Assembly (NCBI RefSeq): GCF_000877395.1 | Contig: NZ_JYFE01000031.1 | Span: 1 to 35,934 of the forward strand | Source: Jannaschia aquimarina | Lineage (GTDB): Bacteria > Pseudomonadota > Alphaproteobacteria > Rhodobacterales > Rhodobacteraceae | Direction: 5' to 3' | Length of the DNA: 35,934 nucleotides | Shown here: in pieces, positions 14,734 to 31,817 of the stretch | How positions within the stretch are numbered: position 1 is the first letter of the stretch | How the letters are laid out: each line of letters opens with the position of its first letter | Translations under genes and position numbers: made by a program | Notes under the pieces: generated by a model | What the model was told of the DNA's origin: nothing | The model's database searches: none | Seen by the model: only the letters and a program-made list of their open reading frames with translations

Positions 14734-15407
14734 CAGAACAGCTCCACGATGCAGACTTCGATATCGCCCATGCGCACCACCCATTGTAGGGACGTGCCGC
14801 TGACGCGGACGACACGATCCTCGACGACTTGGCTGTTGACGCTGCGCTCGCGACCGCTGGTGACGCGGAAGATCGCGGGCACCGGCGCGCCCGCCGGGAA
14901 GCGGAAGTAGGTGAAGGACCCGTCGTCCCAGACTTGGCTTGGCGTGATCGCGTTGCGCTCGCTCACCCCGTAGCTGTGTTTCGCCGCCGTTCGCCGGGGT
15001 GCGGTCCCGGCCTGGTTCGCGCGGCGGGGGAAGGTGAACCGCACGACGTAGAAGGGCGCGTTGCCCTCTTCGAGCGTCAGGTAGTAGCTGCGGCGGTTCG
15101 TGTAGATCGTGGCGTTCGTCCGCACGCCGCGAGCCGTCGGCTTGATGGCGACGACGCGATCGCCCGGCACGGTCTGGAACTGGAAGCTCTCGGTGTCGCC
15201 GGCGACGATGGAGACGATCTGCTCGCCCGGCTCCAGCTCGACCGTCGTGGCGCGGGTCAGGGCGACTCGGATCTTGTAGACCTGTCCGTCCACGTGGCGC
15301 GTCTCGCGGACACGGTGGTCGAGACGCGATCCGGCCGGGATGGCTTCGGCGAGGATGGGGGAGGCGGTCAGGCATGCGAGCGCGCCCGCCAGGATGAAGT
15401 GGCGCAT
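14733..15407 (-). CDS. virB9: VirB9/TrbG-type T4SS outer-membrane core protein
   Basis: A 224-residue protein with a signal peptide (MRHFILAGALACLTASPILA). N-terminal beta-rich and C-terminal domains are typical of VirB9/CagX: PTARGVRTNATIYTNRRSYY followed by YGVSERNAITPSQVWDDG and FTYFRFP. It forms the outer-membrane core complex with VirB7 and VirB10. The gene is immediately after virB8 with no spacer and overlaps virB10 by one base, consistent with stoichiometric co-translation. Confidence 0.93.
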   Translation of the reverse strand: MRHFILAGALACLTASPILAEAIPAGSRLDHRVRETRHVDGQVYKIRVALTRATTVELEPGEQIVSIVAGDTESFQFQTVPGDRVVAIKPTARGVRTNATIYTNRRSYYLTLEEGNAPFYVVRFTFPRRANQAGTAPRRTAAKHSYGVSERNAITPSQVWDDGSFTYFRFPAGAPVPAIFRVTSGRERSVNSQVVEDRVVRVSGTSLQWVVRMGDIEVCIVELF

Positions 15408-16061
15408 CTACTCTCTCCGATCCTGTGTGATGCTGTACTCGGACACGGTGAAGCCGAGGGGGTTGGCCCAGACCGCTTCCAGGGTCCGTTCCTCGCCGGG
15501 GGCGAACTTGTAGCCGATGACGGCCGTGAAGTTGCCCACCGTCGCCCCGTCGGGGTTCGTCAGCCGCTTGCGCATCCGCACCTGCACCCGGTCGTTGGGC
15601 AGGGGCGTGATCGAGGTGATGACCACCTCGACCTGCGCACGATCGCCGTAGCGATCCGGCAGGAATTGATCCGACCCACTGTCCCAAAGGGCCAGGAAGG
15701 CCCGGCGGGCCGTCCCGTCGGTGCGCGCGAGCGCGCGGTTGATCCGCACGTCGTTGTCGATCTGGTTGTAGGTCTCGCGGTCGGTCACGTACTGCCAGAC
15801 GAGGGACTGGACGACGGCCGTGCGCTCGTCGAGCGAGATCGCCTCCACGCTGGCGTTCGGGACGGCCAGGCCCGTCGCCGGGTCGAAGGGGACGACGACC
15901 GGGGCAGGGGGGCGCATCGCATAGAGGATGCCTGCGGCCGAGCCGACTGAGACCATCGCGACCAGGGCCATACCTGCGAACCCGATCTGCCAGAACTTCT
16001 CGCGGCGCAGCGCGCCGTAGATCACTTCCGCCTCGAGAATGGTCCCGGCCGCCTCCGACAT
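15408..16061 (-). CDS. virB8: VirB8-type T4SS assembly factor
   Basis: A 217-residue protein with a short cytoplasmic N-terminus, one membrane helix at about residues 24-49 (FWQIGFAGMALVAMVSVGSA) and a periplasmic NTF2-like domain. Family-like elements include RETYN at the middle helix and NPLGFTVSEYSI at the C-terminus. VirB8 dimers nucleate assembly of the channel and contact VirB4, VirB5, VirB6, VirB9 and VirB10. The start at 16061 overlaps the virB5 stop by one base, which selects it over the longer upstream frame. Confidence 0.93.
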   Translation of the reverse strand: MSEAAGTILEAEVIYGALRREKFWQIGFAGMALVAMVSVGSAAGILYAMRPPAPVVVPFDPATGLAVPNASVEAISLDERTAVVQSLVWQYVTDRETYNQIDNDVRINRALARTDGTARRAFLALWDSGSDQFLPDRYGDRAQVEVVITSITPLPNDRVQVRMRKRLTNPDGATVGNFTAVIGYKFAPGEERTLEAVWANPLGFTVSEYSITQDRRE

Positions 16062-16846
16062 CAGTCGAACTCCGGCTGGGTGAAGTCGACGAATTGCTCG
16101 ATGTCGGCGAGGGTCGCGGCATCGAGGACGCCGTTGAGGCCCACATTCATGGTCTGGACACTTTCGAGCTGCCAGAGCGCAGCCATGGCGACGGCGAGCT
16201 CGGCCGTAACGCGGGTGTTGTGATCGACCGATTGCTTGAGCGTATCCAGGTTCTCGATCTCGCCGATCAGCACGCCCACCCGCTGGACCGACTGGCCCGC
16301 CTCCTCGTAGGCGATCTCGGCCGCGGCCGAGGTGGCCGCGTTGCTGGTGGTGGCGGTGGCGTTGCGCTGCGCGGCCGGGTCGTCCGATTCCGCCATCGCC
16401 GTGATCTGCTCCTGCGAGGTGCCCGAGCCGGACAGCGCACGGTCGATCGCCGCCTCGAAGTCGGGGGCGGCCCCGCCGGTGATGCCGCTCCAATCGCCGC
16501 GCGCGCCGCGCAGGATCGTGCCCAGCATCTCGGCGTCGAACTCGCCCTCGAGAAGCCCGTCGAGATCGATGCCGAGGGCGAGCGACAGCACCTCGGTCGG
16601 GTCCGACAAGAGGGCTTGGATTTCCTCCAGGCGGGTCAGATGTTCCTCGAGGACGCGGACCTGCTCGGCCAGCTGGCCCAGCTGCTCGGCCTGGATGCCT
16701 GCATCCGCGGCCAGCTGCTCGAGGATCTGGATCTGGCGCAGCAGGTTGGCGCTGTCGATCGTCGGCACGCCTTGCGCCGACGCGGGCAGGGCCGAGGCCG
16801 CGAACATGAGAGCGAACAGGCAGGGCTTGAGGGCGGGAAATTGCAT
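16061..16846 (-). CDS. virB5: VirB5/TrbJ-like minor pilin
   Basis: A 261-residue exported protein: signal peptide (LFALMFAASALPASA) then AQGVPTID at the mature N-terminus, a helical first half with coiled-coil character (IQILEQLAADAGIQAEQLGQ), a Gly/Ala-rich middle and a helical C-terminal part (SVDHNTRVTAELAVAMAALW) ending FVDFTQPEFD. VirB5 proteins sit at the pilus tip and mediate adhesion. AAAGGA lies 7 nt before the start. Both termini strongly resemble the termini of the next gene upstream, which carries a transglycosylase domain, so the two share ancestry. Confidence 0.85.
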   Translation of the reverse strand: MQFPALKPCLFALMFAASALPASAQGVPTIDSANLLRQIQILEQLAADAGIQAEQLGQLAEQVRVLEEHLTRLEEIQALLSDPTEVLSLALGIDLDGLLEGEFDAEMLGTILRGARGDWSGITGGAAPDFEAAIDRALSGSGTSQEQITAMAESDDPAAQRNATATTSNAATSAAAEIAYEEAGQSVQRVGVLIGEIENLDTLKQSVDHNTRVTAELAVAMAALWQLESVQTMNVGLNGVLDAATLADIEQFVDFTQPEFD

Positions 16847-16857
16847 CGGGCGTCCTT

Positions 16858-17994
16858 TCAGAACTCGGGCGTAGAGAAGTCGACGAAGGCCATTGCCTCG
16901 CGCTGGCGCGTCAGCTGGGCCGCGACCTGGGAGTATTCGGATTGGGTGCGGGCGGCCTTGGTGCGCAGTCGCGCGGCGACGATCAGCGTGACCTCCGCCC
17001 GGATCGCGGTGTTCAGGTCCATCGCCTGCTTGGCGGTGTTCGTGTCGCTGATCTGGGCGACGAGCGCGCGCACCCGCATCAGCGCCTGGCGGGCTGTCGC
17101 CAGTGAATGCCCCGCATAGTGCATCGAGCCGTCCGACAGAAGGCTCGCATTGGCGACCGCATACTCGGCCGGGTCGAGAGTGCCGAGGGCTTCCGCGCCC
17201 CCGATCGTGCGCAGATACGAGTTGTACTTCTCGGGGATCACCTGGACGTAGTGCTGGGTCTCGCGGAAGGGCGGGACGCCGCCGTATTCGATGATCCGCC
17301 CCGGCCCCGCATTGTAGGCGCCGAGCGCGAAGATGATGTTGCCGTCGAAGCGCTGGAGCTGCTCGGCCAGGTAGCGCCCGCCGCCCACCACCTGCAGGTA
17401 GGGATCTGTGTAGTAGTCGGGATAGACGCCGAGATACCGCGCCGTGCCGGGGATGATCTGCGTGAGCCCGAAGGCGTCCGCGGGCGAGCGCGCCCCGACC
17501 TGGAACCGGCTCTCCTGCCAGATCAGGGCCTGGAGCAGGCAGCGCCATTGCAGAGGCGACAGACCGGCGCGGCCCACGCCAGGCTCCCCATAAGTGTCGG
17601 CCGCGCCGCGGATGATGAGCTGCTCGATGTCCTCGCGCGCATCTCCGAAGACGAAGCGCCCGGCGGGGTTGGCGACCGGCCCATAGACCTCCTCGACGCC
17701 CTCGTATCTCGCCCCGCCGCCGGTGAAGGCGGCCGTCATCGTCGGCACCGATCCGAAGGCCTCGATCATCCGGTCGAGCGCGTCGAGCTGCTGCGCCTTG
17801 AAATCCTGGATGTCCGCCCGGTTCTGCGCTTTCGCGACCTGCGTGTCCTCGTCGCGTTCGAGGTGGAGATAGGCTTGCAGCTTCTCCGCCAGCGTGCGCC
17901 CGTCGATGGTCGGCACGCCCTGTGCCAGGGAAGAATGGCACAGGGCGGCCAGCGCGGCCGCTGCGATCGGGGGTGTTCGCAGCAACCTACCCAC
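16858..17994 (-). CDS. Lytic transglycosylase domain embedded in a VirB5-like protein
   Basis: A 378-residue exported protein. A GTG start at 17994 is chosen because AAAGGAG lies 9 nt upstream and it opens a signal peptide (RTPPIAAAALAALCHSSLAQ); the longer ATG frame begins inside the preceding gene. The mature N-terminus AQGVPTIDGRTLAEKLQ matches that of VirB5. A lytic transglycosylase domain lies in the middle, with catalytic-type Glu in ALIWQESRF and the GLTQIIPGTARYLGV and ALGAYNAGPGRI motifs. The last 75 residues again match VirB5 (DTNTAKQAMDLNT, ending FVDFSTPEF). It would cleave peptidoglycan for channel passage while possibly also occupying a VirB5 position. Confidence 0.85.
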   Translation of the reverse strand: MGRLLRTPPIAAAALAALCHSSLAQGVPTIDGRTLAEKLQAYLHLERDEDTQVAKAQNRADIQDFKAQQLDALDRMIEAFGSVPTMTAAFTGGGARYEGVEEVYGPVANPAGRFVFGDAREDIEQLIIRGAADTYGEPGVGRAGLSPLQWRCLLQALIWQESRFQVGARSPADAFGLTQIIPGTARYLGVYPDYYTDPYLQVVGGGRYLAEQLQRFDGNIIFALGAYNAGPGRIIEYGGVPPFRETQHYVQVIPEKYNSYLRTIGGAEALGTLDPAEYAVANASLLSDGSMHYAGHSLATARQALMRVRALVAQISDTNTAKQAMDLNTAIRAEVTLIVAARLRTKAARTQSEYSQVAAQLTRQREAMAFVDFSTPEF

Positions 17995-18256
17995 GGCACT
18001 GGGCTCCTTTGTGGGGTAGGGTGCCGGTGGGAGAGCGGGACGACCGGGCCAGCGTCGCAGCCTGGTCGTCGGAGAGGAACTTGAAGACCGGCCGACCACC
18101 GACGCCGCCGGGGCCCGGGGGCAAGGCGGCGAAGTCGCAATTGCCGGTCGGGTTGCCCTCCTGCGTGAAGCAGGAACATCGAGCCTCCCGGTCCTGGGCC
18201 GAAACGCAGCCCGATAGCAGGCCGAGGACCGCGATCAGAGAGAGGGGTCGCGTCAT
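17987..18256 (-). CDS. VirB7-like T4SS lipoprotein
   Basis: An 89-residue lipoprotein precursor. The signal sequence ends in a perfect lipobox LLSGC with the lipidated Cys at residue 17. The mature part is small, Cys-containing (CSCF, GNCDF, AQCRG) and Pro/Gly-rich. It sits between virB4 and the VirB5-like transglycosylase and overlaps virB4 by 4 nt (ATGA). Position, size and lipobox suit VirB7, which anchors VirB9 in the outer membrane through a disulfide. Sequence identity to known VirB7 proteins is too low to be certain, so the name is positional. Confidence 0.72.
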   Translation of the reverse strand: MTRPLSLIAVLGLLSGCVSAQDREARCSCFTQEGNPTGNCDFAALPPGPGGVGGRPVFKFLSDDQAATLARSSRSPTGTLPHKGAQCRG

Positions 18257-20610
18257 GGGATGTGCCTCCAGAAGTCGGGCTGCGTACGGAAGTCGGGACC
18301 CGCGACCGAGAGACCGGCCGTGCCGCCGCCGAGGACGTGCAGCAGATCGCCCAAGGCGGACGCGTCGCCGTCGAGGACGACGCTGTTCTCGTCGTCGCGC
18401 AGCAGGAAGTGGCGCCCGAGCGACCGCGACGTGACGATATCGATCTCGGCCGAATTGAGACGCAGCGCGGCGTAGTCCTCGGCAGAGGACTTGCCGTCCG
18501 GAAAGAGGATCTGCGTCGGGAAGAACGAGAAGACGCGCTCGCCTACGCGAGAGCGGGCGAGCTGGCCCGCGTTCTGCGTCAGCATCACGACGACCGCGTT
18601 CTGCTTGCGCAAGGTGGCGAGCCAGCCTTCGATCACGGTGGCGAAGTACGGATCGTCGATGGCCTTCCAAGCCTCGTCGATCAGCACGATCGTCCGCGTC
18701 CGATCCCGCAACTGCCGCTCGATCCGGCGGAAGATGTAGCTCAGCACGGCCGTCCGCTCACGCGGCGAGGGCGCGTCTAGGATCTGTGTCAGGTCGAAGC
18801 CCATCACCTCGCCGTCGAGCGAGAAGCTGTCGGTCTCGGACTGTCCGAAGACCCAGCCGAACCGGCCGTCCCGCGCCCATTCCTCGACCAGTCGCTGCAC
18901 CCCGCCCTCGTCGTCGGTGGAAGCGAAGAGGCGCGCGAACTCGTGGAACTGGCGGAGCGGGCCGTCGGCATCCGCATTGCGGCGGACATTCTGGAGGATG
19001 GCCTGCGTCTGCATCGGCGTCAGCCCGCCTTCGGGGGCCAGGATGCGGGTGAGCCAATCGGTCAGCCATTCGACGCCCTCGCCATCCGTCTCGACCTGCA
19101 ACGGGTTGAGACCCGTGGGCAGGCCGCTCTGGACCACCGAGTAGCTGCCGCGCATGGCCCGGATCGCCATCTCGAGGCCCTGGCGGTAGTCGAAGGCGAA
19201 GATGCGTGCGCCCGTCCGCCGGGCCTGCGTCATCAGGAAGGACGCCAGCAGCGACTTGCCCGACCCGGTCTCGCCCAGGATCAGCGTATGGCCCGCAGGC
19301 GGCTCGCCCCGGCCGTCGCCGCGGCGGTGGAAGCTGAAGCGGTAGCTCGACCCCATCGAGGTCGGGAAGACCGCCACGGGCGTCTCCCAGGGCACCTCGC
19401 CGCGGTCCTTGCCGAGCGGCGTGCGGTGCAAGGATGCGTAATCCGCGAAGTTGCCGTTGGTGATGACGTTCACCCGGCTCCGCGTGCCCATGTTCCCCGG
19501 GAACTGAGCGAAGTAATGCGCCTTCCGGACGAGGCTGTCGCGCACGAGGCGGAAGCCTGCATTGGCTCCGATCCCTTCGACCTCGGACATCAGATCGCGC
19601 ACGATCGTAGCATCCGGGTCGATCAGGGCTACCGTCATGTGATGCTGCCCCAGGGAGACGCGCTGCGACAGCACGCCCTCGTGGAGCGCGGCCAGCTGCT
19701 CGCCGGCCTGCTCGCGTGCATCCGAGGTGGCGCGCATTACGCTGCGCTGGCGCTGGATCTTCTCGACGGCCGCGCTGTTCGCCATCGGCGTGAAGCTCTG
19801 GGCGATGACGTAGTCGCAGGGCATGGCGAACTCGTCGAAGATCGTGACCCAGGACATCGGCCCGTAGGCGCGGATCGCGCGGATCTCGCCGTAACGTTCG
19901 CCCAGGGGGCCATCGTGCAACTTCCAGCCGGGGCCCTGGAAGGTCACCCGCTCCGAGAGAACGTCGTCGGCCACGACGCCGAGCGTGCCGCTGGGGTAGA
20001 TGGGGCGCTCGTCGCCCGTCTGGATAGAGCCGAGGAAGCCCAGCAGCTCGCCCGGGGATGCCGCGAGAATGCGGGTCTCGTCGGCACCGAGGGCGGCGCG
20101 CATGGCGCGCACGGTGTCGGCGAGGATTTCGAGGTCGCGGGCCTGGCCTGCGCCGACGAGCTTCGACGCGCCCCGGAACATATCGAGGCCGCGTGCGAGG
20201 CGGCCGTGCTTGACGATGGAGATCGTCAGCCGGCAGTCGCGCATCTGACGCGCGTCGAGACCGGCCTTCCACCGCGCGTCGACCGCCGCCGGGAAGTCAT
20301 TGGCCTTCAGCGGGTCGAGCGAGGTCGTCAGATCGACCCGGCGGCTGACCCGATGGGTGTAGATGGTGAAGGTCGGATCGAGCTGGGACAGGATGCCCGC
20401 GAAGGCGAGCTTCAGCGCGTCCAGCTCGCGATCCGGCGTCGTGGCGGCGTTCAGTCCATCGGCGCGGATGCAGGTCATGAAGGAGTTGTCCCGCAGGCGG
20501 ACGACGTGATTGTTCACCAGCGAGACGTACGGCAGGTGCATGAGCCCCTGGCGCAGGAGCCCGCGCTGCGCGACCAGCTTGGCGGCGACGGCGGGAACCT
20601 CAAGGGCCAT
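18253..20610 (-). CDS. virB4: VirB4 T4SS ATPase
   Basis: A 785-residue ATPase of normal VirB4/CagE length. The N-terminal domain (about 1-400) is followed by the nucleotide-binding domain with Walker A GETGSGKS (about residues 446-453) and Walker B TIVLIDEAW (about 640-648). Later conserved elements include LRKQNAVVVMLTQNAGQLA. VirB4 energises pilus biogenesis and substrate transfer at the inner membrane. The ATG at 20610 is chosen over GTG at 20622; both overlap the 3' end of virB3, and GGTGG lies upstream of the ATG. The C-terminus ends PDFWRHIP. Confidence 0.95.
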   Translation of the reverse strand: MALEVPAVAAKLVAQRGLLRQGLMHLPYVSLVNNHVVRLRDNSFMTCIRADGLNAATTPDRELDALKLAFAGILSQLDPTFTIYTHRVSRRVDLTTSLDPLKANDFPAAVDARWKAGLDARQMRDCRLTISIVKHGRLARGLDMFRGASKLVGAGQARDLEILADTVRAMRAALGADETRILAASPGELLGFLGSIQTGDERPIYPSGTLGVVADDVLSERVTFQGPGWKLHDGPLGERYGEIRAIRAYGPMSWVTIFDEFAMPCDYVIAQSFTPMANSAAVEKIQRQRSVMRATSDAREQAGEQLAALHEGVLSQRVSLGQHHMTVALIDPDATIVRDLMSEVEGIGANAGFRLVRDSLVRKAHYFAQFPGNMGTRSRVNVITNGNFADYASLHRTPLGKDRGEVPWETPVAVFPTSMGSSYRFSFHRRGDGRGEPPAGHTLILGETGSGKSLLASFLMTQARRTGARIFAFDYRQGLEMAIRAMRGSYSVVQSGLPTGLNPLQVETDGEGVEWLTDWLTRILAPEGGLTPMQTQAILQNVRRNADADGPLRQFHEFARLFASTDDEGGVQRLVEEWARDGRFGWVFGQSETDSFSLDGEVMGFDLTQILDAPSPRERTAVLSYIFRRIERQLRDRTRTIVLIDEAWKAIDDPYFATVIEGWLATLRKQNAVVVMLTQNAGQLARSRVGERVFSFFPTQILFPDGKSSAEDYAALRLNSAEIDIVTSRSLGRHFLLRDDENSVVLDGDASALGDLLHVLGGGTAGLSVAGPDFRTQPDFWRHIP

Positions 20611-20875
20611 AGCTGTCACCACCGAAGAGGCCGCGCGTTCGCGTTCCCGGAACCACCCGAAACCCCGTCATCAGCACGTCGATGATCTTCTCGTCGTAGC
20701 GGGCCGCGATCCGGCAGGCGATGTAGACCACCTCACACCAGGCCAGCGTCCATGCGCTCACCGACCAGATCAACGGCATGACCGTGAACCCCATGAAGGG
20801 GATCGCGAAGCCGTAGGGCAGACCGAGCAGCCGAGACGACTGCGTGAGCGCGCTGTAGAACGGGGTTTCGATCAT
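20600..20875 (-). CDS. virB3: VirB3-type T4SS membrane protein
   Basis: A 91-residue protein with two closely spaced hydrophobic segments (GFAIPFMGFTVMPLIWSVSA and TLAWCEVVYIACRI) after the family-like start METPFY/ALTQSSRLLG. VirB3 is a small inner-membrane protein associated with VirB4 and sometimes fused to it. Here the two genes overlap by 11 nt but remain separate. Length and order (virB2-virB3-virB4) are canonical. Confidence 0.9.
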   Translation of the reverse strand: MIETPFYSALTQSSRLLGLPYGFAIPFMGFTVMPLIWSVSAWTLAWCEVVYIACRIAARYDEKIIDVLMTGFRVVPGTRTRGLFGGDSYGP

Positions 20876-20885
20876 CGGGCGGGTC

Positions 20886-21182
20886 TCAGCTCGCCGCGCC
20901 CCAGATCGACTGGATGATCGTCGGGATGACGCCGATGGCGACGACGACGAACAGCACCTGGAAGACGCGGCTCCAGTCGATGAAGTTGAAGGTGCCCGCC
21001 ATCAGCACGGCGGCGGCGACGAGCGTCATGATGAGGCGGCCGGTCGTGCCGGTGAGCGCGTTCAGCACTGAGGTCAGGAAGGCGTCGAAGGCGCTCACGT
21101 CTATGGCCTGGGCCATCGCCGGCGACGCCGACACACAGAACAGCGCGATCGCTGCGTAAACATAATGAATATTATCAGTCAT
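20886..21182 (-). CDS. virB2: VirB2-type major pilin
   Basis: A 98-residue precursor with a signal peptide (YAAIALFCVSASPAMAQ) and two membrane helices in the mature part (RLIMTLVAAAVLMAGTF and FQVLFVVVAIGVIPTIIQSI) separated by a short polar turn (NFIDWSR). This is the VirB2/TrbC pilin architecture; the mature subunit is about 74 residues and polymerises into the conjugative pilus with phospholipid. The start overlaps the transglycosylase stop by 4 nt (ATGA). Confidence 0.9.
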   Translation of the reverse strand: MTDNIHYVYAAIALFCVSASPAMAQAIDVSAFDAFLTSVLNALTGTTGRLIMTLVAAAVLMAGTFNFIDWSRVFQVLFVVVAIGVIPTIIQSIWGAAS

Positions 21183-21841
21183 GGTCTTGGTCCCCCGTTC
21201 TGGGTCAGTTGGGTATAGGCAGCCATGACCTTCCGGACGTGGCCCTGGGTCTCACGGTAGGGCGGAATGCCCCCGTGACGGCGGACCGCTTCCGGCCCGG
21301 CGTTGTAGGCGGCAATCGCCAGCTCCGGCGTGCCGAATGTGTCGAGCATCTCGAGGAAGTATCGGACCGCGCCGTCCAGGTTCTGGACCGGGTCGTAGCG
21401 ATCGACGCCAAGATAGTCGGCCGTACTGGGCATGAGCTGCCCGAGACCGTAGGCGCCGACGTGGGATCGCGCGCGAGGATTGTAGGCACTCTCGATCTTG
21501 ACGAGCGCCTGGAAGAGGAGCGCCCACTGCCGGGGCGACAGACCGGCCCTGCGGATGGCCCCATGGGATGCATAGCGGAAGCCGGCGTCGCGGATCATCT
21601 CGCGAATACCGGCCGACGGCGTGACCGTAGCCGGCAGACGAGCAACGGCGACGCCGCGAGTAGCTGCGACCGCCGGAGGTCGCTCGGCGCCGAAAATGAC
21701 TAGGCGGCCGGCATCAGCCCATTCTTCGAAGCCGTTGTCGCCTGGAACGAGGACCTGCGGAGTGGCCGGCGATGCATTGAGAAGGAGGGCGACCGCCGCG
21801 GCGTGCAGGCCAAAAGCTTTACGAGCGGACGTTCCGGTCAG
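21179..21841 (-). CDS. virB1: VirB1-type lytic transglycosylase, start codon unclear
   Basis: A protein of about 220 residues with a lytic transglycosylase domain: catalytic-type Glu in ALVKIESAYNP, then GAYGLGQLMPSTADYLGV and AIAAYNAGPEAVRR. It opens local holes in peptidoglycan for the channel. A hydrophobic, signal-like stretch (LHAAAVALLLNASPATPQ) precedes the mature part, but no ATG, GTG or TTG lies in frame near it. A CTG at 21841, just before ARKAFG, is the best candidate start and gives an n-region with positive charges. The start overlaps the 3' end of the preceding gene. It is paralogous to the second transglycosylase of the operon. Confidence 0.75.
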   Translation of the reverse strand: MTGTSARKAFGLHAAAVALLLNASPATPQVLVPGDNGFEEWADAGRLVIFGAERPPAVAATRGVAVARLPATVTPSAGIREMIRDAGFRYASHGAIRRAGLSPRQWALLFQALVKIESAYNPRARSHVGAYGLGQLMPSTADYLGVDRYDPVQNLDGAVRYFLEMLDTFGTPELAIAAYNAGPEAVRRHGGIPPYRETQGHVRKVMAAYTQLTQNGGPRP

Positions 21842-22172
21842 AGGCCCTGTGCAACGCGGTCTCCCCCGCGCGCATCGGAACTGTCGCGGCCGGGAAACCG
21901 AGGCCGTACAGGAAGGTGATGAGACCGTTCGGAGTCTTGAAGAGACGCAGCTTGATCTCGAGATCGCCGCCGGCCCGGGTCGGCACGAGTGCGCGTTCTT
22001 CGTCACCGTCCTCGTTGACGACGCGGATGATCCATTCGCCCGACCAGAAGGATTGCTTGAGGACCGGATCGGCCCTGGCCGCGACCTCGATGCCCCAACC
22101 GTGTTCGAGCAACGCCTTAAGCTGGATTTCCGTGACCACATTCGGGGTGTCTCTGATCGGTCTGTCAGTCAC
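21819..22172 (-). CDS. Unknown protein at the start of the T4SS operon
   Basis: A 117-residue soluble-looking protein with no recognised family. A GTG at 22172 is preferred (GGAG about 7 nt upstream); a TTG at 22190 would add six residues. The sequence has no signal peptide or membrane helix and reads as an alpha/beta fold (IQLKALLEHGWGIEVAAR, WIIRVVNEDGDEERALVP, LRLFKTPNGLITFLYGLGF). It overlaps the transglycosylase gene at its 3' end, so it belongs to the operon. Cytoplasmic location suggests a regulatory or accessory role, which is not proven. Confidence 0.6.
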   Translation of the reverse strand: MTDRPIRDTPNVVTEIQLKALLEHGWGIEVAARADPVLKQSFWSGEWIIRVVNEDGDEERALVPTRAGGDLEIKLRLFKTPNGLITFLYGLGFPAATVPMRAGETALHRASDRNVRS

Positions 22173-22190
22173 CCTCGGTCTCCGCGACAA

Positions 22191-22359
22191 AGGACGCAGG
22201 CAGCAGGGCTGCCCACTTCCTACAACATGTAAAGATTGCGATCAAATCATAAGATCGACCGAATCCCTTCGTACCTTGCCGTTTACTATCGCATGGCGCC
22301 CGAGATGTAAGCGGCGGCAGGGCTGCAGCACCCGCATTTCATCTGGGCTATGAACTCGA
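22191..22359. promoter_or_regulatory. AT-richer spacer with dyad inside the T4SS leader
   Basis: A 169-nt spacer between the first small gene and the next T4SS gene. It contains CGATC-AAATCATAA-GATCG (22239-22257) and an ACATGT palindrome (22225-22230) in sequence noticeably richer in A and T than its surroundings. It may hold a second promoter or operator for the virB genes. No ORF with a good start is seen. Confidence 0.35.
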
Positions 22360-22569
22360 CTAGCGGCCGAACCTCAGCCCCAGAGGCGGCGGCGGGACGA
22401 AGTCGAGGGCTTCGAAGCGAATCTCGTTCACAGCTTCGTCGAACCAGTAGAGCGCGCGCTGGCCATCGTCCCACATGTATTCGGCGCCGACCTGTTCGCC
22501 CGTTCGAGCGTCGAGGATCTTCCGGATCGGCCAAGCTTCCGCGGCGGTGGAGATGTCGTTTCTCGTCAT
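22360..22569 (-). CDS. Small unknown protein, first gene after the quorum operator
   Basis: A 69-residue acidic protein with no recognised family. The ATG at 22569 has GAGG about 7 nt upstream. The protein is compact, with a probable beta-rich core (GAEYMWDDGQRALYWFDEAV, EIRFEALDFV) and a PPPPLG tail. There is no signal peptide or membrane helix. It is the first gene downstream of the 22636-22660 palindrome and in the same direction as the virB operon, so it is probably quorum-controlled and could be a regulator of transfer. Function is not inferable from sequence. Confidence 0.6.
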   Translation of the reverse strand: MTRNDISTAAEAWPIRKILDARTGEQVGAEYMWDDGQRALYWFDEAVNEIRFEALDFVPPPPLGLRFGR

Positions 22570-22635
22570 GGATGACCTCGCGTCCTGCGGCTCGTCCATT
22601 CGGCTAGGACAGCTTCGAGAAGCGGACAACGAGGC

Positions 22636-22660
22636 GCCCTTTCGGTGTATCCGAATGGGC
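22636..22660 (-). promoter_or_regulatory. lux-box-like palindrome upstream of the virB operon
   Basis: A 25-bp dyad with 10-bp arms GCCCTTTCGG and CCGAATGGGC (9 of 10 positions complementary) around TGTAT. Its centre is 79 nt upstream of the first gene of the transfer operon. Extended to 27 bp (22634-22660) it matches the reverse complement of the element at 23390-23416 at 25 of 27 positions. Size, symmetry and association with luxR and luxI make it the probable LuxR binding site that activates the operon. Confidence 0.7.
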
Positions 22661-22668
22661 AGTGCGGG

Positions 22669-22698
22669 ACCCGGCGTGTTTCATCGGGAGAGCCGGGT
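22669..22698 (-). terminator. Possible luxR terminator hairpin
   Basis: ACCCGGC (22669-22675) and GCCGGGT (22692-22698) form a 7-bp stem with a 16-nt loop, 8 nt past the luxR stop. No T tract follows, so termination efficiency is doubtful. It would separate luxR from the virB operon, which reads in the same direction. Confidence 0.35.
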
Positions 22699-22705
22699 TC
22701 GGCGG

Positions 22706-23353
22706 CTAAGCGACGTGGTCGAGGAACCCGCGCTTCAGCGCAATCGCCACAGCCTGGGTCCGGTTCTTCGCCCCGAGCTTCTTCGTCGCCGAGACCGCGC
22801 GTTGCTTCACCGTCGTCTCGGCGATCTGCAGGATCTGCGCGATCTCCTTCTGGCCTTCGCCGTCCCTCAGGAGCTGCAGTACCGCGATTTCCTTCGCAGT
22901 CAGAGCCGCTTGGTTGGTCGCCAGATCGCACCACAGCGAGAACCGCGCGTCGACTGCATCGATCTCCTCGTCCGTGAATTCCCGGCTGTCATGGGCGATC
23001 GAGAGCACCGATCGCTTGAGGCCTCGCTTCTGCGAGAAGACGGCGCCGTAGGCCAGTCCGTGCGCGCGCCCTCGCTCCAATACCTTGCGGATGTCGGGCA
23101 GCCGGACCTCAGACCATCGCCTCACGCCCGATAGACTAAATGCCCAAATCAAGATCGGATCGGCGACCATGTAGTTCTTCTCTTCGTATTCCGTGCGCCA
23201 TTCGGCCGGAAACTCCGAGATCATGTGTTCCGGCCCCATGACGGACCAGTTAAACGCCAGGACGAAGCCTGACGGCGCCGTCCGACGCAGACGCGCTAGC
23301 TCGTCGTCCAGATTGGGGATCAACGTTTCCAGCATATCGCGAGATGTATTCAC
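22706..23353 (-). CDS. luxR: LuxR-family quorum-sensing regulator
   Basis: A 215-residue regulator. The N-terminal autoinducer-binding domain shows the conserved cluster EWRTEYEEKNYMVADPI, with Trp, Tyr and the Asp-Pro pair expected to contact an acyl-homoserine lactone, then the later RRWSEV Trp and GLAYGAVF. The C-terminal GerE-type helix-turn-helix is LTAKEIAVLQLLRDGEGQKE followed by IAQILQIAETTVKQRAVSAT. It is divergent from the luxI unit, sharing a promoter with an operator-like palindrome. A second copy of that palindrome lies beyond its 3' end at the virB promoter, so it is the likely activator of conjugation, comparable in role to TraR. Confidence 0.93.
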   Translation of the reverse strand: MNTSRDMLETLIPNLDDELARLRRTAPSGFVLAFNWSVMGPEHMISEFPAEWRTEYEEKNYMVADPILIWAFSLSGVRRWSEVRLPDIRKVLERGRAHGLAYGAVFSQKRGLKRSVLSIAHDSREFTDEEIDAVDARFSLWCDLATNQAALTAKEIAVLQLLRDGEGQKEIAQILQIAETTVKQRAVSATKKLGAKNRTQAVAIALKRGFLDHVA

Positions 23354-23389
23354 GAGGTTTACCTAGCGGAAGAACTTACTTCGATATAC

Positions 23390-23414
23390 GCCCTATCGGA
23401 TACACCGAAAGGGC
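23390..23414. promoter_or_regulatory. lux-box-like palindrome between luxR and luxI
   Basis: A 25-bp dyad with arms GCCCTATCGG and CCGAAAGGGC (9 of 10 complementary) around ATACA. It lies 36 nt from the luxR start and 42 nt from the first gene of the luxI unit. It is an inverted copy of the element at 22636-22660. A LuxR-autoinducer complex bound here could drive positive feedback on luxI and control luxR. Confidence 0.7.
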
Positions 23415-23456
23415 GCATCATTGACTTGAACCTCCTGCCCCGTCCTTCGTCGGACC

Positions 23457-23678
23457 ATGGAGTTCCCGAAGCTCAGACAGCCGAAGGTCATGGCCGAAGT
23501 GGCCTTCACCCGGGATATGGTCGAGACGCTGAATACGTATTTCAGCGCCTACCAGGATGACGGCGTCGTCACGATCACCGTGACGGATGGCGGGCTCTAT
23601 CTAGAGAATCCGACCACGGCGTCGCGGCAGTTCCTGGGCCTCGCGCGCCTCGCGGACGACCCGAAGGTGCGGCATTGA
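23457..23678 (+). CDS. Small unknown protein co-translated with luxI
   Basis: A 73-residue protein of unknown family. It has a helical N-terminal half (FTRDMVETLNTYFSAYQDDG) and a beta-rich second half (VVTITVTDGGLYLENP). It is the first gene after the lux-box-like palindrome and its TGA overlaps the luxI TTG start by 4 nt (TTGA). Tight coupling suggests a role linked to signal synthesis or simply translational delivery of ribosomes to luxI. There is no signal peptide. Confidence 0.65.
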   Translation: MEFPKLRQPKVMAEVAFTRDMVETLNTYFSAYQDDGVVTITVTDGGLYLENPTTASRQFLGLARLADDPKVRH

Positions 23679-24298
23679 AACCGCGCGCCTTCGACACCGC
23701 GCGCACACCGACGATCACGATCGTCGAGCCGTTCATGCCGTCGAGCCGGTACGACCTTGTCAGGCAATTCATGGCCCTACGCAAAGCGACCTTCATCGAC
23801 GAGATGGACTGGGATCTTAGCCATGCGGACGGGATCGAGTTCGAGCAGTACGACTCCTTCCACGCAGTCTACGTCATCGCTCATCGCGGCAAGGACGTCA
23901 TCGGCGGTGCGCGGCTGATCCGCACCGACCGAACGCTCGGGTCCGGCCGCGTCCGATACTCCTACATGATCAAGGACGCCTATGACGGGCAGCTGCCGGG
24001 ATTACCGGACGACCTGTGCTATGAGGCGCCCCCGATCTCCGAGGACGTGTGGGAGCTGACCCGGCTAGCAACGTTGCCCAAGATCGATGTCGCACGCGAC
24101 ATCCTCAAGGTGGCCAACCGCTACCTCGCCGATCGTAAGGCCAAGACCTGTCTGTTCCTCGGCCCGCCCGCGTTCATGCGGATCGCGCGGTCCATGGGGT
24201 TCTCGCCGGCGGCCATCGGTCCGATCGTCGGCAACGAGACCGGGCGCTTCCTCGCCTTCAAATGCGAGATCCTCAAGACCGCCGAAGCTGCAATATAG
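23675..24298 (+). CDS. luxI: LuxI-family acyl-homoserine-lactone synthase
   Basis: A 207-residue autoinducer synthase. It makes an acyl-homoserine lactone from S-adenosylmethionine and an acyl-carrier-protein-bound fatty acid. Conserved features are LRKATFIDEMDWDL (Arg, Phe and Trp), EFEQYDS (Asp), GGARLIRTD (Arg) and the VWELTRLAT Glu-x-x-Arg pair. The start is a TTG at 23675 overlapping the previous stop; it keeps the first beta strand (TITIVEPF), whereas the next ATG would delete it. It is probably activated by the neighbouring LuxR. The acyl chain cannot be predicted. Confidence 0.92.
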   Translation: MKPRAFDTARTPTITIVEPFMPSSRYDLVRQFMALRKATFIDEMDWDLSHADGIEFEQYDSFHAVYVIAHRGKDVIGGARLIRTDRTLGSGRVRYSYMIKDAYDGQLPGLPDDLCYEAPPISEDVWELTRLATLPKIDVARDILKVANRYLADRKAKTCLFLGPPAFMRIARSMGFSPAAIGPIVGNETGRFLAFKCEILKTAEAAI

Positions 24299-24308: not shown

Positions 24309-24326
24309 TCAATCTGTATAGATTGA
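24309..24326. promoter_or_regulatory. Palindrome upstream of the TrbM-like gene
   Basis: TCAATCT-GTAT-AGATTGA has perfect 7-bp arms. It begins 11 nt after the luxI stop and lies 33 nt before the next start codon, in locally AT-rich sequence. It could be an operator for the downstream gene or a weak luxI terminator; no T tract follows, which favours an operator. Confidence 0.4.
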
Positions 24327-24358
24327 TAGGCATTCGATCTCTCACAGGAGCCGAGATC

Positions 24359-25024
24359 ATGCCGTCGATCAAGACCAGCGCGATGGCGGTCGCCTTCGCG
24401 TCCTCGTTTGCAACCGCCGCCCCCGCCTACCCGATCGACTGTGCGATCCTCTTATGTCTCGCCGGCGGATGGCCAGCCTCCACCGAGTGCACCGCCGCCC
24501 GCGCCGAGTTCGTCCGCCGGATCACCCCCTGGCCCATCGAGCCGCCGCTGCAGATGTGGCGTTGCCCGCTGCGCGCGAGCGTCGAGGGGCACGCGGAAGC
24601 ACCGCCCACGCTGCTCGATGCGATGGCCCGGATAGACCCGCGCCGGATCACGCGCGACCTCGCATTGGACCTTGTTCAGAGATCGATCCCCGAGCGCGCC
24701 GACATCGACCTCTCTACCCCCGCATTCGACTTCGTCCGCTCCATCCGGGTCTACGACATCGACTGGCACGTCTGGGATCACGAGAACGCCGCCGGTGACC
24801 ATTCGTGCCGGGTTCGCCGTGAACGGGTCCGGATCGGCAGCTACGGCCCGCAGGGCGAGTTCGCCTGGCGCGCCGCCGGCGTCACCGAAGCCACTGCCCA
24901 GACCTGGATCGGCTTCGACACGCGAGCCCGCGAAAGCTGCAGTCACGAGGGCCGGTTCCGGGGCGTCGCTGTTGAGTGGCGCGACGTCGAAGGACGCCAT
25001 GGCTTCGAGGTCGTCACATACTGA
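24359..25024 (+). CDS. Exported TrbM-like conjugation protein
   Basis: A 221-residue exported protein. The ATG at 24359 has AGGAG about 10 nt upstream and starts a signal peptide (SAMAVAFASSFATAAPAYP). The mature N-terminus reads DCAILLCLAGGWPASTEC, resembling the Cys-x-x-LLCLAGG start of TrbM/KikA-type conjugal transfer proteins, followed by RRITPWPIEPPL. The remainder (about residues 95-221) has no recognised domain and contains two further cysteines (HSCRVRR, ESCSHEG) that may form disulfides. Placement after luxI and before repC, apart from the virB operon, suits an accessory transfer protein. The family call is by motif only. Confidence 0.6.
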   Translation: MPSIKTSAMAVAFASSFATAAPAYPIDCAILLCLAGGWPASTECTAARAEFVRRITPWPIEPPLQMWRCPLRASVEGHAEAPPTLLDAMARIDPRRITRDLALDLVQRSIPERADIDLSTPAFDFVRSIRVYDIDWHVWDHENAAGDHSCRVRRERVRIGSYGPQGEFAWRAAGVTEATAQTWIGFDTRARESCSHEGRFRGVAVEWRDVEGRHGFEVVTY

Positions 25025-25145: not shown

Positions 25146-25191
25146 CTTCGGTCAGCAGGAACGCCAATTCCTATACGCTCACCAGTCCGGT
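25104..25191 (-). ncRNA. Candidate antisense (counter-transcribed) RNA upstream of repC
   Basis: A minus-strand promoter-like pair, TTGTTC (about 25221-25226) and TAAACT (25198-25203) with a 17-bp spacer, would start an RNA near 25191. The RNA would contain a hairpin region (arms CTCACC/GGTGAG, 25178-25194, possibly truncated at its 5' side) and end at a strong minus-strand terminator. In repABC plasmids a short antisense RNA transcribed opposite the repC leader limits RepC synthesis. Position and orientation match that model; the RNA itself is inferred. Confidence 0.4.
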
Positions 25192-25297
25192 GAGTAGAGT
25201 TTACCAGCCCCCCGACAGTCGAACAAGAAAAAAACGCATTCGTGCGAACGATTTCCGTCGGCTGGTTCGACCTCCTCCATCACGAAGCGAGGAGAAT

Positions 25298-26533
25298 ATG
25301 ACAGCAATTGCCCAAAGGGCCGGCGATCTTTCGGGCCCGCATCGATCGAGCCTTGGCGACGACGCCTTCCCCATCCTTCCCGGCGAAATGCAGCGCAGTC
25401 AGGTCGGCGATCTGATCCGCGAGGTTCGTCGCGCGCTCGGCCTGAGCGCACCGGCGATCACGCTGCTCCAGAAGCTGATCGACATGACCCGCCCTCGCGA
25501 CTGGACCGACCCGCATTCGGAGCCGGTCTGCTACGCGGCCCAGGTTCGCATCGCTCACGAGCTGGGCTGCTCGCCCCGCCAGATACGGACCCACGAGGCC
25601 CGCCTGATCCGCGCCGGCCTCATCGAGGACCGCCGCCGCGCGAATGGCAGCCGCTCGAAACACGGGCTCTGCGGCCTTGGGCTTACGCCCCTCATCCGGC
25701 GCATCCCCGAGCTTCTCGCCGCCCGAGATCGTCTGAGAGACGCATGGACCGACCAAGAACGGCGCGTGAGCCGGCGCAGCGTCCTCTATCGCCGCGCGAA
25801 GGCGCTGCTAATGGAGCTACAGCCGGCCCGTCCCGACGACGCGGAGGTCAACGCCCTGACGGCATCGTTCCTCGCCTGGCCCTCCTCGAGCCGCCTGCGC
25901 CGCCTGCGCCCGAACGACCTGGCGACCCACCTGAGCGCCGCGGCCCATCTCGTGGACCGACTGGAAGCGCTGCGTGCCATGACCTTCGAATCTTCCGGTC
26001 GGGCGGACGGAGAGTTCCGCCGCTCAATAAAAGCTACAACGGAAGCAACTCCGGTACTCTGTAGCGCGCGCCCATCCGCTGGGGGTCGAGATGGCGGCGA
26101 TGAACCGCGGGAACGGGCCAACAACGGCGCCGATTGCAGGGAAAGCGAGCGCCGAAGTCGCAGCCCGGACTGGACCCGCCGCCTCACGCCGTTCGGATTG
26201 CGCGCCATCGCGTCGGACCCGTTCCGGCTCTACCTCGATCACGAGAGCCGGGGACGAACGCAGCCCCGCATCGAGGACTTTCTGCTGGCGGCCCTCCGTC
26301 GCCTGCCGGAGCTCGGCATCAGCCCCTCGGCCTGGGAGGACGCCTGTGATCGGATGGGCGAGGTGACCGCGATGCTCTGCGTCCTCGTCATCGACGCGAA
26401 CCGGCACCACCCCGTCACGCCGATCCGACGTCCAGGTGGCGCGTTGCGGGCCATGACAAAGCGCCATGCCGCGGGCGAGCTAAACCTCGTCGGAAGCCTC
26501 GCCGGCCTGATGGCGCGGGCGGGAACATCGTGA
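25298..26533 (+). CDS. repC: RepC-family plasmid replication initiator
   Basis: A 411-residue initiator of the RepC type found in repABC replicons. The ATG at 25298 has GGAG 7 nt upstream in a leader reading GAGGAGAATATG. The N-terminal winged-helix domain has ALGLSAPAITLLQKLIDMTR, RIAHELGCSPRQIRTHEARL and IRAGLIEDRRR; the C-terminal domain has ELGISPSAWEDACDRMG and AGELNLVGSLAGLMARAG, both typical of RepC. RepC binds an origin lying within its own gene. No RepA/RepB partition genes precede it: upstream is an exported TrbM-like protein. The replicon is therefore solitary repC here, or partition genes lie outside the window. Confidence 0.9.
   Translation: MTAIAQRAGDLSGPHRSSLGDDAFPILPGEMQRSQVGDLIREVRRALGLSAPAITLLQKLIDMTRPRDWTDPHSEPVCYAAQVRIAHELGCSPRQIRTHEARLIRAGLIEDRRRANGSRSKHGLCGLGLTPLIRRIPELLAARDRLRDAWTDQERRVSRRSVLYRRAKALLMELQPARPDDAEVNALTASFLAWPSSSRLRRLRPNDLATHLSAAAHLVDRLEALRAMTFESSGRADGEFRRSIKATTEATPVLCSARPSAGGRDGGDEPRERANNGADCRESERRSRSPDWTRRLTPFGLRAIASDPFRLYLDHESRGRTQPRIEDFLLAALRRLPELGISPSAWEDACDRMGEVTAMLCVLVIDANRHHPVTPIRRPGGALRAMTKRHAAGELNLVGSLAGLMARAGTS
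26022..26066. other. Candidate oriV segment inside repC
   Basis: The middle of repC contains an AT-richer run (AATAAAAGCTACAACGG and following) in the linker between the two RepC domains. In repABC plasmids the origin maps to an AT-rich tract within repC at about this position. No iteron or DnaA box is obvious, so this is a positional guess. Confidence 0.25.
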
Positions 26534-28649: not shown

Positions 28650-29921
28650 TCATCGGATCACCGGCAATTCGCTGATCCGCGTCGTATAACGGGGACTTCG
28701 ATGATCCGCTCGCAAGGCCCAGGATCGCTCCATGCCCTCGGAGGCAAGAACCATCGTCTTCTTCCCGAACCGATCGTTCACCATATCGAGGGCGCACATC
28801 AGCTCGGCCGACTTCGGGCGCATTGCGTCGAAAAGGGTCCGCGGCCGATCCTCTAGGGGCAGGAGATCGTCGAGCAAGACGCCGGCCTTCGAGAAGCCAT
28901 AGGGCTTCTCATCCTTCGGCCACCCTGCCCTCGCGCAGCGCCGCGCAGCCTCGACGAGGTCGAACGTATCCGACGACATCGGCGTCAGCTTTGTCGATCG
29001 CGCGGACGACCATTGCGGACGATCGGGTCGATGCTTGTTCGTATGGAAGATCACCGTCAGCGTGCCGGCGACGAGACTATGCTGGCGCAGCTTCTCCGCC
29101 GCCCGCGTCGCGTGAGCCGTGATAGCCTGAAAGAGCGTGTCGAAATCCATCATCGGCGCCGAGGCCGATCGCGTAACGGCCATGCCTTTCCGCTGGGGCT
29201 CGACCTCTTCGAGCGATAGGCACGGCTCGCCTTGCAGCTCCAGGACCGTGCGTTCGAGGACGACCGTGCCGAGTTTGCGCGCTTGGCGCAGGGGCATGTC
29301 CCGCAACTCGGCCGCCGTGCCGATCCCGATCGCCCGCAGTTTCCTTTCCGTCTGCCGTCCGATGCCCCAGATATCCCCAACCGGCACCTTCGGTAGCAGC
29401 CAGCGGGCCAGCTCCTCGTCCATCATGTCGAGGACGCCATCGAAGATTGGGTTCTTCTTCGCGATCTCGTTGGCACATTTCGCGAGGGTCTTCGAGCTGG
29501 CGATGCCGACCCGAACCGGGATGCCGACCCGGCGTAGCACGGCCGCGCGCATGGCTCGGGCATGTGCCTCTCGGTTCTTGAAGCCGTGGAAGTCCAAGAA
29601 GCTCTCGTCGATGGAGTAGATATCCACCGAAGGCGTGAAATCCGCATACGTATCCACGACCCGCCGGGAGAGGTCCGCGTAGAGCGTGTAGTTCGAGCTG
29701 AAGACCCGGATCCCGTGGGCTTCCACCTTGTCGCGGATCAAGTGAAGGGGGTCCCCCATCTTGATTCCGAGCGCCTTCGCTTCGTCGCTGCGCGCCACGG
29801 CGCATCCATCGTTGTTCGACAGGACGATCACCGGGACGTTCTTCAGCGACGTGTCGAAGACGCGTTCAGCCGAGACGTAGAAGTTCTTGCTGTCCGAGAT
29901 CGCGATCGGCCGCCGGCTCAT
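28650..29921 (-). CDS. umuC: UmuC-type Y-family DNA polymerase subunit
   Basis: A 423-residue Y-family polymerase, the normal UmuC length. The N-terminal palm has Asp10 in [15 protein letters not shown] (here SDSKNF replaces the common DVNAFY), the steric-gate region, and the catalytic pair Asp105-Glu106 in YSIDESFLD. The helix-hairpin-helix ([20 protein letters not shown]) and the little-finger domain follow. UmuC with UmuD' forms Pol V, which copies damaged DNA and is mutagenic. The ATG at 29921 overlaps the umuD stop by 4 nt, forming an operon under a LexA-type box. Confidence 0.93.
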
Positions 29922-30352
29922 TCTAGCTCGTAGCGGCGGACGACACCTGCAAGCACGCCCCATATCTCGCTGTCTGGCGTCAGCTCGACATCAGGGAAGT
30001 CCTCGGCCGAGTTCGCCGGGGCCAGGTAGTACCGGTCGTTCCGGCGCCGGAGGATCTTCGCCGTGACCTCCCCGTCGATCACCGCCAGGACCGCCCGGCC
30101 GAGCCGCCGCTTGCCGTCCCGATCGACCGCAATCAGGTCTCCATCGCGGATACCGACGTCCCAAAGGCAATCCCCCTCCACCCGCCACCAGAAGGTCGAG
30201 GCCGGGCGACGCACGACCCAGGCGATCGGGTCGATCTCGTCTTCCAGATCGTCCGCCGCCGGCGACGGGAAGCCCGCGCTCACCGTCATCCTGACGAAGC
30301 GCATCGGCTGACCTTCGGCGATCACGGGTTGATCGATCGGATGAAGCGGCAT
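29918..30352 (-). CDS. umuD: UmuD-like protein with Cys in place of the catalytic Ser
   Basis: A 144-residue UmuD/LexA-type S24 peptidase. The cleavage site region [11 protein letters not shown] (Ala26-Gly27) and the catalytic Lys99 in DGEVTAKIL are present. The nucleophile, normally Ser in a GDSM motif, is Cys62 in EGDCLWD; the codon is TGC, one base from AGC Ser. UmuD self-cleaves to UmuD' in response to RecA filaments and joins UmuC. Whether Cys supports cleavage here is unknown; if not, the protein would stay full length. It is first in the umuDC operon, preceded by a LexA box 15 nt from its start codon. Confidence 0.9.
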
Positions 30353-30825: not shown

Positions 30826-31143
30826 ATGCGGCTCCTAACCAGGATCCAGCGTGTGGCATTCGACGGACGACGCCTCCTGCCGGACCGGCCGCTGGTTCAC
30901 CTCTACCCGTCCTCGATGTTCGACCTTTGGCCAATGCCGTCCGGGGAGGCCGCGCTACGCGAAGGTCGACCGACCCTCGCCGTGACGCTGCCCAGCGAGC
31001 ACATCGAGGTCTTTTGCGACGGCCGATGGTACCCGAAGCGCCTCGCGATCGGCCGGATGATCCGCGGCGACATCCTCAAACGCGGATCGGCGGACGGTAT
31101 TGTCTACACGCGAGAGAGCGCCGCCGCCCATCCTCTCCCCTAG
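30826..31143 (+). CDS. Small unknown protein convergent with SRAP gene
   Basis: A 105-residue protein, mixed alpha/beta, with no recognised family. Features visible are a conserved-looking VHLYPSSMFDLWPMPSG segment and VFCDGRWYPKRLAIGRM. An ATGCT-AGA-AGCAT palindrome lies at 30803-30815, just ahead of the start, as a possible operator. Its stop overlaps the stop of the convergent SRAP gene by 4 nt. No signal peptide. Confidence 0.6.
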   Translation: MRLLTRIQRVAFDGRRLLPDRPLVHLYPSSMFDLWPMPSGEAALREGRPTLAVTLPSEHIEVFCDGRWYPKRLAIGRMIRGDILKRGSADGIVYTRESAAAHPLP

Positions 31144-31817
31144 AGCCCAGCCCGATCCGACTTCAGATCCTCGCCTTGCTGGTGGACCACCATCGCGGAT
31201 GCCGGGTAGGGCCGGATCAGATCGAACGCCATGTCCGGATCACCCGTCAGCCAGGTCTCGTAGTCCTCGGGCTGCAGGATCATAGGCATCCGATCAGGGT
31301 GGGTCTCTCGCACCAGTTCGTTCGGCGTCGTCGTCACGATCGAGGACGTGACCAGCTCACGATGCTCGCCGCCGTAGTTCCCGACGAAGGGACGCCAGAT
31401 CCCCGCGAAGGCGAATGGCGGGCGGTCGCCCTCCCCCGTCACCCCGAACCAGACATAAGTCGCCGGCTTCCGGCCCTTCGCTTCGCAGAAGCTCGTCGCT
31501 GGGACCAAGCACCGGCGCTCCTCGAAGCTCTTCCGCCAGAAGGACGACGTCCGGAGCTTGTCGTCACGCGCATTGTTCACCGCCTTCGGCTGGATCGGCT
31601 TGCCGGTCTTCTTCGAGACCTGCGGCAGCACGAAGCCCCAATGGCTGTTCTTCAGCCAGCGGGTACCGTCCTCGCTCATACCGACGATCGGCGCCCTGCC
31701 CTTCGGAAAGATCGCCGGTAGCGGTTCGGCGTTGCCCAGCTCGTCCTGGGCGGGTGACACCCCGAAGAGCTGGCGCATCGCCTCGACCGGCATCGTGTTC
31801 GAGTAGAGATTGCACAT
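31140..31817 (-). CDS. SOS-response-associated peptidase (SRAP, YedK/HMCES family)
   Basis: A 225-residue SRAP-domain protein. After removal of the initiator Met, Cys2 (MCNLYS) can form the thiazolidine DNA-protein crosslink with abasic sites in single-stranded DNA. The other active-site positions are present: Asn82 region (VNNARDD), Glu112 in SFCEAKG and His173 in ETHPDRMP. The family shields abasic sites in ssDNA. It lies within the proposed leading region, where incoming ssDNA is abundant, near umuDC. No LexA box was found upstream. Confidence 0.92.
   Translation of the reverse strand: MCNLYSNTMPVEAMRQLFGVSPAQDELGNAEPLPAIFPKGRAPIVGMSEDGTRWLKNSHWGFVLPQVSKKTGKPIQPKAVNNARDDKLRTSSFWRKSFEERRCLVPATSFCEAKGRKPATYVWFGVTGEGDRPPFAFAGIWRPFVGNYGGEHRELVTSSIVTTTPNELVRETHPDRMPMILQPEDYETWLTGDPDMAFDLIRPYPASAMVVHQQGEDLKSDRAGL

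Follow-up and report, generated by a model that had tools for sequence, protein, structure and literature searches.

On a stretch of Jannaschia aquimarina DNA that carries a plasmid replication gene and a virB-type type IV secretion system (T4SS; contig NZ_JYFE01000031.1, 35,934 nt, hereafter the window), luxR is bracketed by two near-identical 25-bp dyads, one inverted relative to the other. A matching palindrome is found again in luxR promoters of related loci, with a second copy beyond luxR in part of those that carry T4SS genes. We read the two dyads as operators of the LuxR encoded between them, site 2 serving luxR and hyp73-luxI and site 1 serving the small gene orfX, and assign this joint reading a probability of about 0.72 from sequence comparison. 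The sequences of the sites, their recurrence, position, pairing and co-divergence, and the gene order around them were observed directly. The features concerned are as follows.

22636-22660, no strand: site 1, 25-bp dyad GCCCTTTCGGTGTATCCGAATGGGC, directly 3' of luxR and facing orfX
23390-23414, no strand: site 2, 25-bp dyad GCCCTATCGGATACACCGAAAGGGC, between luxR and hyp73-luxI
22627-22660, no strand: left arm of a 34-nt inverted repeat, which adds 9 nt to site 1 toward orfX
23390-23423, no strand: right arm of the same repeat, site 2 plus 9 nt toward luxI
22706-23353, minus strand: luxR (AHL-binding domain PF03472, E 1.1e-11; GerE HTH PF00196, E 7.8e-14)
23384-23389, minus strand: AT-rich GTATAT next to the luxR-facing edge of site 2, a possible luxR -10 element
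23457-23678, plus strand: hyp73, small conserved ORF (73 aa) before luxI, with tblastn matches in many loci
23675-24298, plus strand: luxI, AHL synthase (PF00765, E 6.7e-11), divergent from luxR with hyp73 between
22360-22569 (from ATG), minus strand: orfX (hypB0), small ORF after site 1, assigned by position and a phmmer match to the orfX of locus L274
22210-22269, no strand: AT-rich trough (GC 0.417) in the orfX-virB gap, candidate separate virB promoter region
10621-22190, minus strand: virB-type T4SS cluster (Pfam and NCBIfam; VirB3 by tblastn to relatives)
25190-26533, plus strand: repC, plasmid replication protein (PF03428 and PF11800; NCBIfam RepABC_RepC below its cut-off)

Two inverted dyads flank luxR

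Nine of the ten arm positions are complementary in each dyad, and 22634-22660 is identical to the reverse complement of 23390-23416 at 25 of 27 positions, which confirms the claim of a sequence-only reading of this DNA that two near-identical dyads flank luxR. A repeat search of the window extended the likeness to the 34-nt inverted repeat, 88% complementary. Beyond the dyads, the two sites agree at 7 of 9 further letters on the side facing orfX or luxI and at 2 of 9 on the side facing luxR.

Allowing up to three mismatches, the dyad pattern matched the window twice, at the two dyads, in line with the earlier observation that no further copy was present; the corresponding shuffle mean of 0.01 is a flattering comparison because the pattern was taken from these same sites. 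Throughout the genome (4,098,947 bases in 81 contigs), sites 1 and 2 were the sole places that matched at two mismatches or fewer. A looser pattern, at up to three mismatches, gave 45 matches per strand against 19 for a reversed-pattern control; sites 1 and 2 matched with none and all other places with two or three, which leaves them the only close copies in the 4.1-Mb genome, with nothing else within one mismatch of the loosened pattern.

Site 2 is centred 49 nt upstream of the luxR start, and site 1 lies 46 nt past the luxR stop. The sequence-only reading had put one dyad in the luxR/luxI intergenic region, and this position holds with the amendment that the region is properly luxR/hyp73-luxI, because the small ORF at 23457-23678 stands between site 2 and luxI. 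The other dyad had been placed 79 nt, centre to start, upstream of the first gene of the virB operon; the distance is correct, but the gene at that distance is the small ORF at 22360-22569 and not a virB gene. A TTG at 22629 is a possible alternative start of orfX, and in relative L034 the corresponding distance is 85 nt to the annotated start.

LuxR and LuxI have the sequence features of an AHL-type (acyl-homoserine lactone) pair, with both LuxR domains, the AHL-pocket residues, and a LuxI-type synthase beside luxR. The pocket residues are W57, Y61, D70, P71, W85 and G113 in TraR numbers, as given in the available portion of PMC11655674. W52, Y56, D65, P66 and W80 of the window LuxR are invariant in our alignment A1 and have the spacing of the first five; G103 is also invariant and was taken as TraR G113, an assignment that its spacing makes less sure. 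No Pfam or NCBIfam family matched hyp73, which is retained in L071 and L151, where tblastn gave no adjoining luxI.

Elsewhere in the window, the T4SS cluster contains a lytic transglycosylase, VirB2, VirB3, VirB4, a VirB5-like protein, VirB10, a VirB11-like protein and VirB6. The VirB10 frame (13228-16146) is 972 aa long with its TrbI/VirB10 domain only at residues 796-970, hence either a long N-terminal extension or a start called too far upstream. A 233-aa ORF at 24323-25024, for which Pfam and NCBIfam gave no family, is also present close to repC in many of the plasmids, and the repC side further holds, at 28650-30352, 31140-31817 and 33399-34337, a UmuC-like polymerase with an S24 peptidase, an SRAP protein and an ArdC-like anti-restriction protein.

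The palindrome recurs in the luxR promoter of relatives

Loci of relatives were collected from plasmid records, genome contigs (at least 80 loci) and whole genomes, and the window genes were mapped onto them by tblastn. A de novo search for a palindromic motif 25 positions wide, the width of the window's own dyad, covered the luxR upstream regions of 43 relatives with at least 40% LuxR identity and excluded the window; the identity floor was 35% in the two-site tests and in the scan for sites in relatives. Two rows from contigs already represented, L152 (= L071) and L156 (= L092), were dropped from the motif, two-site and gene-order counts. Many of the loci are close kin, therefore lineages are fewer than loci.

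The motif that emerged, GcCTTTTCGGacagtCCGAAAAGgC (24 bits), had sites in 24 of the 43 relatives and a log-likelihood of 264, against 41-50 in three runs on single-letter shuffles that were given at most 60 start seeds where the real run had 500. Of the 24 sites, 20 are centred 38-61 nt before luxR; the distance is 23 nt in L072 and 18 nt in L037, L093 and L095. Background was low (two matches of at least 15 bits in 3.36 Mb of Markov sequence, the highest 17.4), and the two window sites, which the model had never seen, scored 27.0 bits (site 1) and 24.7 bits (site 2). Because a matching palindrome recurs in the luxR promoters of relatives and its model scores both window sites highly, we consider both dyads very probably to be operators of LuxR, and comparison thus supports what had been proposed from the window sequence.

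The frozen model was carried to a later set, drawn from 125 genomes of the genus of L080 (Paracoccus). Sixty-seven LuxR places scored above 190 bits; 60 regions covering 61 of them were taken, which reduced to 27 non-redundant loci, and 26 were tested, L263 being too short. Sites of at least 12 bits were found in 14 of the 26, and in only three of the nine loci with T4SS genes. In the two closest LuxR relatives of the window (57-58% identity) the model detects no full site, the scores being -5.5 and 1.7 bits; both show only a 15-nt core match at each luxR end (13/15). The LuxR tree, built without L112-L149 (except L114 and L121) and without short matches, grouped the window with these two relatives (100/97) and then with L153 (99/90), under a warning of long branches that may be falsely joined.

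A pattern search across the family returned matches in 90 of 295 genomes at one mismatch or fewer; reversed-pattern controls were frequent as well, and the search, which counted pattern matches alone, was uninformative. A near-fixed dyad, CTTTTCGGNCTGACCGAGAAG, was seen in several family genomes (e.g. L163, L169, L172, L173 and L178), with several copies in G219, and is perhaps a mobile element or a coding motif.

A second copy beyond luxR in T4SS loci

Two tests addressed the pairing of sites. The first, a Hamming two-site test, covered 29 loci, of which 11 reached p ≤ 0.025: the window, L111, L037, L093, L095, L034, L080, L038, L046, L035 and L082. The last (p = 0.0001, against 0.82 in the second test) rests on a weak site and is not counted. 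Lineages with other letters were left out of this test because it required a model site of at least 8 bits, and the second, which came after it, was free of any model and looked for a repeat shared by the 90-nt stretches on either side of luxR, with every other window of that locus as the background.

By the model-free test, p was 0.01 or lower in 10 of 27 T4SS loci (9 of 26 once the window is set aside). Of the loci that lack T4SS genes in the stretch, 3 of 53 reached that level. The later set gave 5 of 9 and 3 of 17, respectively. The window itself reached p = 0.0013, the lowest value possible. The ten positive T4SS loci include near copies (L037, L093 and L095; L038 and L046), and 17 of 27 T4SS loci in the first set and 4 of 9 in the later one fell short of 0.01. 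Among these, L034 and L080 gave p = 0.12 and 0.13, their second site being visible to the model only (21.0 bits), and the two closest LuxR relatives gave 0.040 and 0.053.

Inverted pairs match at 30/34 positions in the window, 37/40 in L258, 27/28 in L264, 16/17 in L043 and 30/40 in L037, and direct pairs at 28/35 in L248 and 26/32 in L253. The letters of paired sites are alike within each lineage and different between lineages. The expectation that the dyad would stand beside luxR in relatives is borne out by the palindrome in the luxR promoter of 24 of 43 relatives and by a second copy after luxR in part of the T4SS loci. The window has every part of the paired arrangement: a palindrome in the luxR promoter, a second copy after luxR, and orfX beyond that copy. 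Among the other loci, L105 and L272 carry two luxR-luxI pairs side by side, and L081, L085, L086, L088 and L089 have luxR between two luxI genes.

OrfX rather than virB follows site 1

The ORF after site 1 appears, from its sequence, to belong to a family of small proteins with the motif WLYxWNTGE; its match to the family HMM alone is weak (E 0.036), against E 1.4e-6 to the L274 member. Of 54 T4SS loci, a partly redundant set that counts the window, 25 have a gene of this family no more than 700 nt after luxR and on its strand; outside the T4SS set one locus, a MOBP repC plasmid, has it as well. In 43 of 49 loci it is the luxI side of the block that faces the virB genes; in the remaining six (L071, L151, L082, L244, L261 and the window, with L082 and L244, whose contigs are equally long, probably one record) it is the luxR side. 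These counts of 49 and 54 loci pool both locus sets, because of which some plasmids are counted twice. luxR was divergent from luxI/hyp73 in all 49 T4SS loci; in loci without T4SS genes in the stretch it was divergent in 57, on the same strand in 16 and convergent in five. With orfX after luxR in 25 of 54 loci, and virB at the other end of the block in 43 of 49, we read site 1 primarily as a putative orfX operator.

Quorum control of virB is possible. LuxR at site 1 might drive orfX and the virB genes as one transcript, since all of them lie on one strand after that site, and long-chain AHLs affect T4SS expression in Dinoroseobacter shibae (PMC4886583, available sections). We regard this as a doubtful if reasonable proposition. 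The first virB-side ORF (21819-22190) begins 169 nt past the end of orfX, across a gap whose GC content falls to 0.417 and which holds a weak terminator-like stem, and the 43 of 49 loci with virB off the luxR side do not share the arrangement. A separate site before virB was also sought in related plasmids, and no model site of at least 9 bits was found between luxI and the first virB gene, with a model that fits some lineages poorly.

Activation or repression

The main rival to an activating role is a repressor like GtaR, with signal-free LuxR on both dyads repressing luxR, luxI and orfX until AHL releases it, the opposite sign of control. Rhodobacter capsulatus GtaR represses its own gene until AHL is bound, covering its own -10 element and start (PMC11655674, PMC6363796, in the portions available), and the putative operator at site 2 has a position that fits such own-promoter binding by GtaR or CerM. 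In support, the letters next to the dyad toward luxR are AT-rich and resemble a -10 element (AT content 0.70, against 0.52 at the opposite flank, over 22 distinct sites). In many relatives ata or atat stands at the position matching GTATAT; a scan of 22100-23700 for sigma-70-type promoters returned none. The 22-bp GtaR motif, RACMTGTCYWWWWRGACAKGTY, has no match in the window at up to three mismatches, however, and the repeated copy before orfX suits activation equally well. On balance repression is a serious but rather unlikely account of both dyads.

GtaR of Rhodobacter and CerM of Cereibacter are nonetheless like the window regulator in being LuxR proteins of Rhodobacterales with a palindrome in the regulator's promoter (PMC11655674, PMC6363796). 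The available text of the former gives the GtaR motif in 18 of 24 upstream regions, with repression relieved by AHL, and that of the latter describes binding over the protein's own -10 element and start. Their sites differ from the window dyads in arm spacing, and these parts of the two papers describe no second copy after the regulator gene. CerM motif matches in the window were at chance level (24 against a shuffle mean of 18.2).

TraR/TraI of Agrobacterium Ti plasmids offers another likeness, a plasmid luxR/luxI pair by T4SS and repC genes with palindromic operators before several transcription units. According to the accessible part of PMC3907764, tra boxes serve traI-trb, repABC, tra and traM and none was detected in the traR promoter, whereas luxR in the window has a site at each end. 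The window LuxR scores 34.4 bits against the TraR family, below its cut-off of 250.

In Vibrio fischeri, the lux box is a LuxR-type operator between divergent luxR and luxI genes, as site 2 would be; the window dyad is longer, with a 5-nt centre. Neither the lux box nor the 18-bp tra box (both as consensus sequences) matched the window at up to three mismatches, which agrees with the earlier remark that the dyads differ from both, and the GtaR motif was likewise absent.

Long-chain AHLs raise expression of the T4SS on plasmids of D. shibae, another member of the Rhodobacterales, and the available sections of that study name no LuxR operator (PMC4886583). The sites treated in the corresponding part of PMC6473078 are those of CtrA and LexA, and for Paracoccus plasmids luxR/luxI or T4SS genes are noted with no operator given in the text seen of PMC3925955, PMC6209633 and PMC3832669. 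A literature search by title and start of abstract, with subscription papers mostly outside its reach, returned no description of paired operators around luxR.

Other possible functions of the inverted repeats

Long, near-identical inverted repeats around luxR, as in the window, L258 and L264, could also be recombination sites making luxR an invertible or mobile cassette, and the entire luxR-luxI block is indeed turned in 6 of 49 loci. We consider this very improbable. No flipped luxR was seen, the gene being divergent from luxI/hyp73 in every one of the 49 T4SS loci, which rules against an invertible luxR; the pairs of L248 and L253 are direct, and each repeat encloses an inner palindrome that relatives have in the luxR promoter. 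Least likely of all is that site 1 acts as an RNA hairpin or terminator. Located 46 nt beyond the luxR stop, it does fold into a stem in that transcript, but it is absent from the terminator-like sites and lacks a T-run, lies in a 121-nt region folding no better than shuffles (z -1.19), and shares its letters, centre included, with the promoter-located site 2.

Proposed mechanism

Returning to the dyads as operators of the LuxR encoded between them, we infer LuxR binding, its AHL dependence, the sign of regulation and read-through into virB along the following lines. Site 2 would act on two divergent promoters, that of luxR and that of hyp73-luxI. LuxR with its signal bound most likely activates the latter, a positive feedback, and the site, set against the -10-like element of luxR, would limit luxR itself. 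Site 1 would be a copy of the outward, luxI-type control element placed before orfX, bringing that gene under control shared with luxI, and in this plasmid transcription from orfX may continue into virB. Most relatives have the luxR-luxI block turned the other way, with the luxI side facing virB and the orfX side facing repC, and an operator at each end of luxR would allow one regulator to address both flanks in either orientation.

More speculatively, a family of Rhodobacterales plasmids may have luxR bracketed by two operators of its own, alike within a plasmid and drifting together between plasmids, as a private quorum switch that commands the transfer and replication flanks in either orientation of the block, perhaps through looping of luxR, with orfX a new quorum-controlled partner such as a TraM-like antiactivator. 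We regard this picture as unlikely in its entirety.

Implications

According to the available portion of PMC11655674, operators of LuxR proteins are degenerate and difficult to predict. The paired-operator luxR, as judged from sequence, would be a variant on the known LuxR-operator theme that is not previously named in the literature found. It points to a regulator family that often has its operator twice in predictable places, so that sequence is enough to recognize the operator in a number of lineages, and the many pairs of LuxR and operator would provide material for the study of DNA specificity. Induction of a T4SS by AHL has been measured in Rhodobacterales, with the operator unnamed in the sections of that work available (PMC4886583), and the sites reported here would be ready sites for testing the link between conjugation and cell density in this order. 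They also point to two small proteins, OrfX and Hyp73, as possible parts of the switch.
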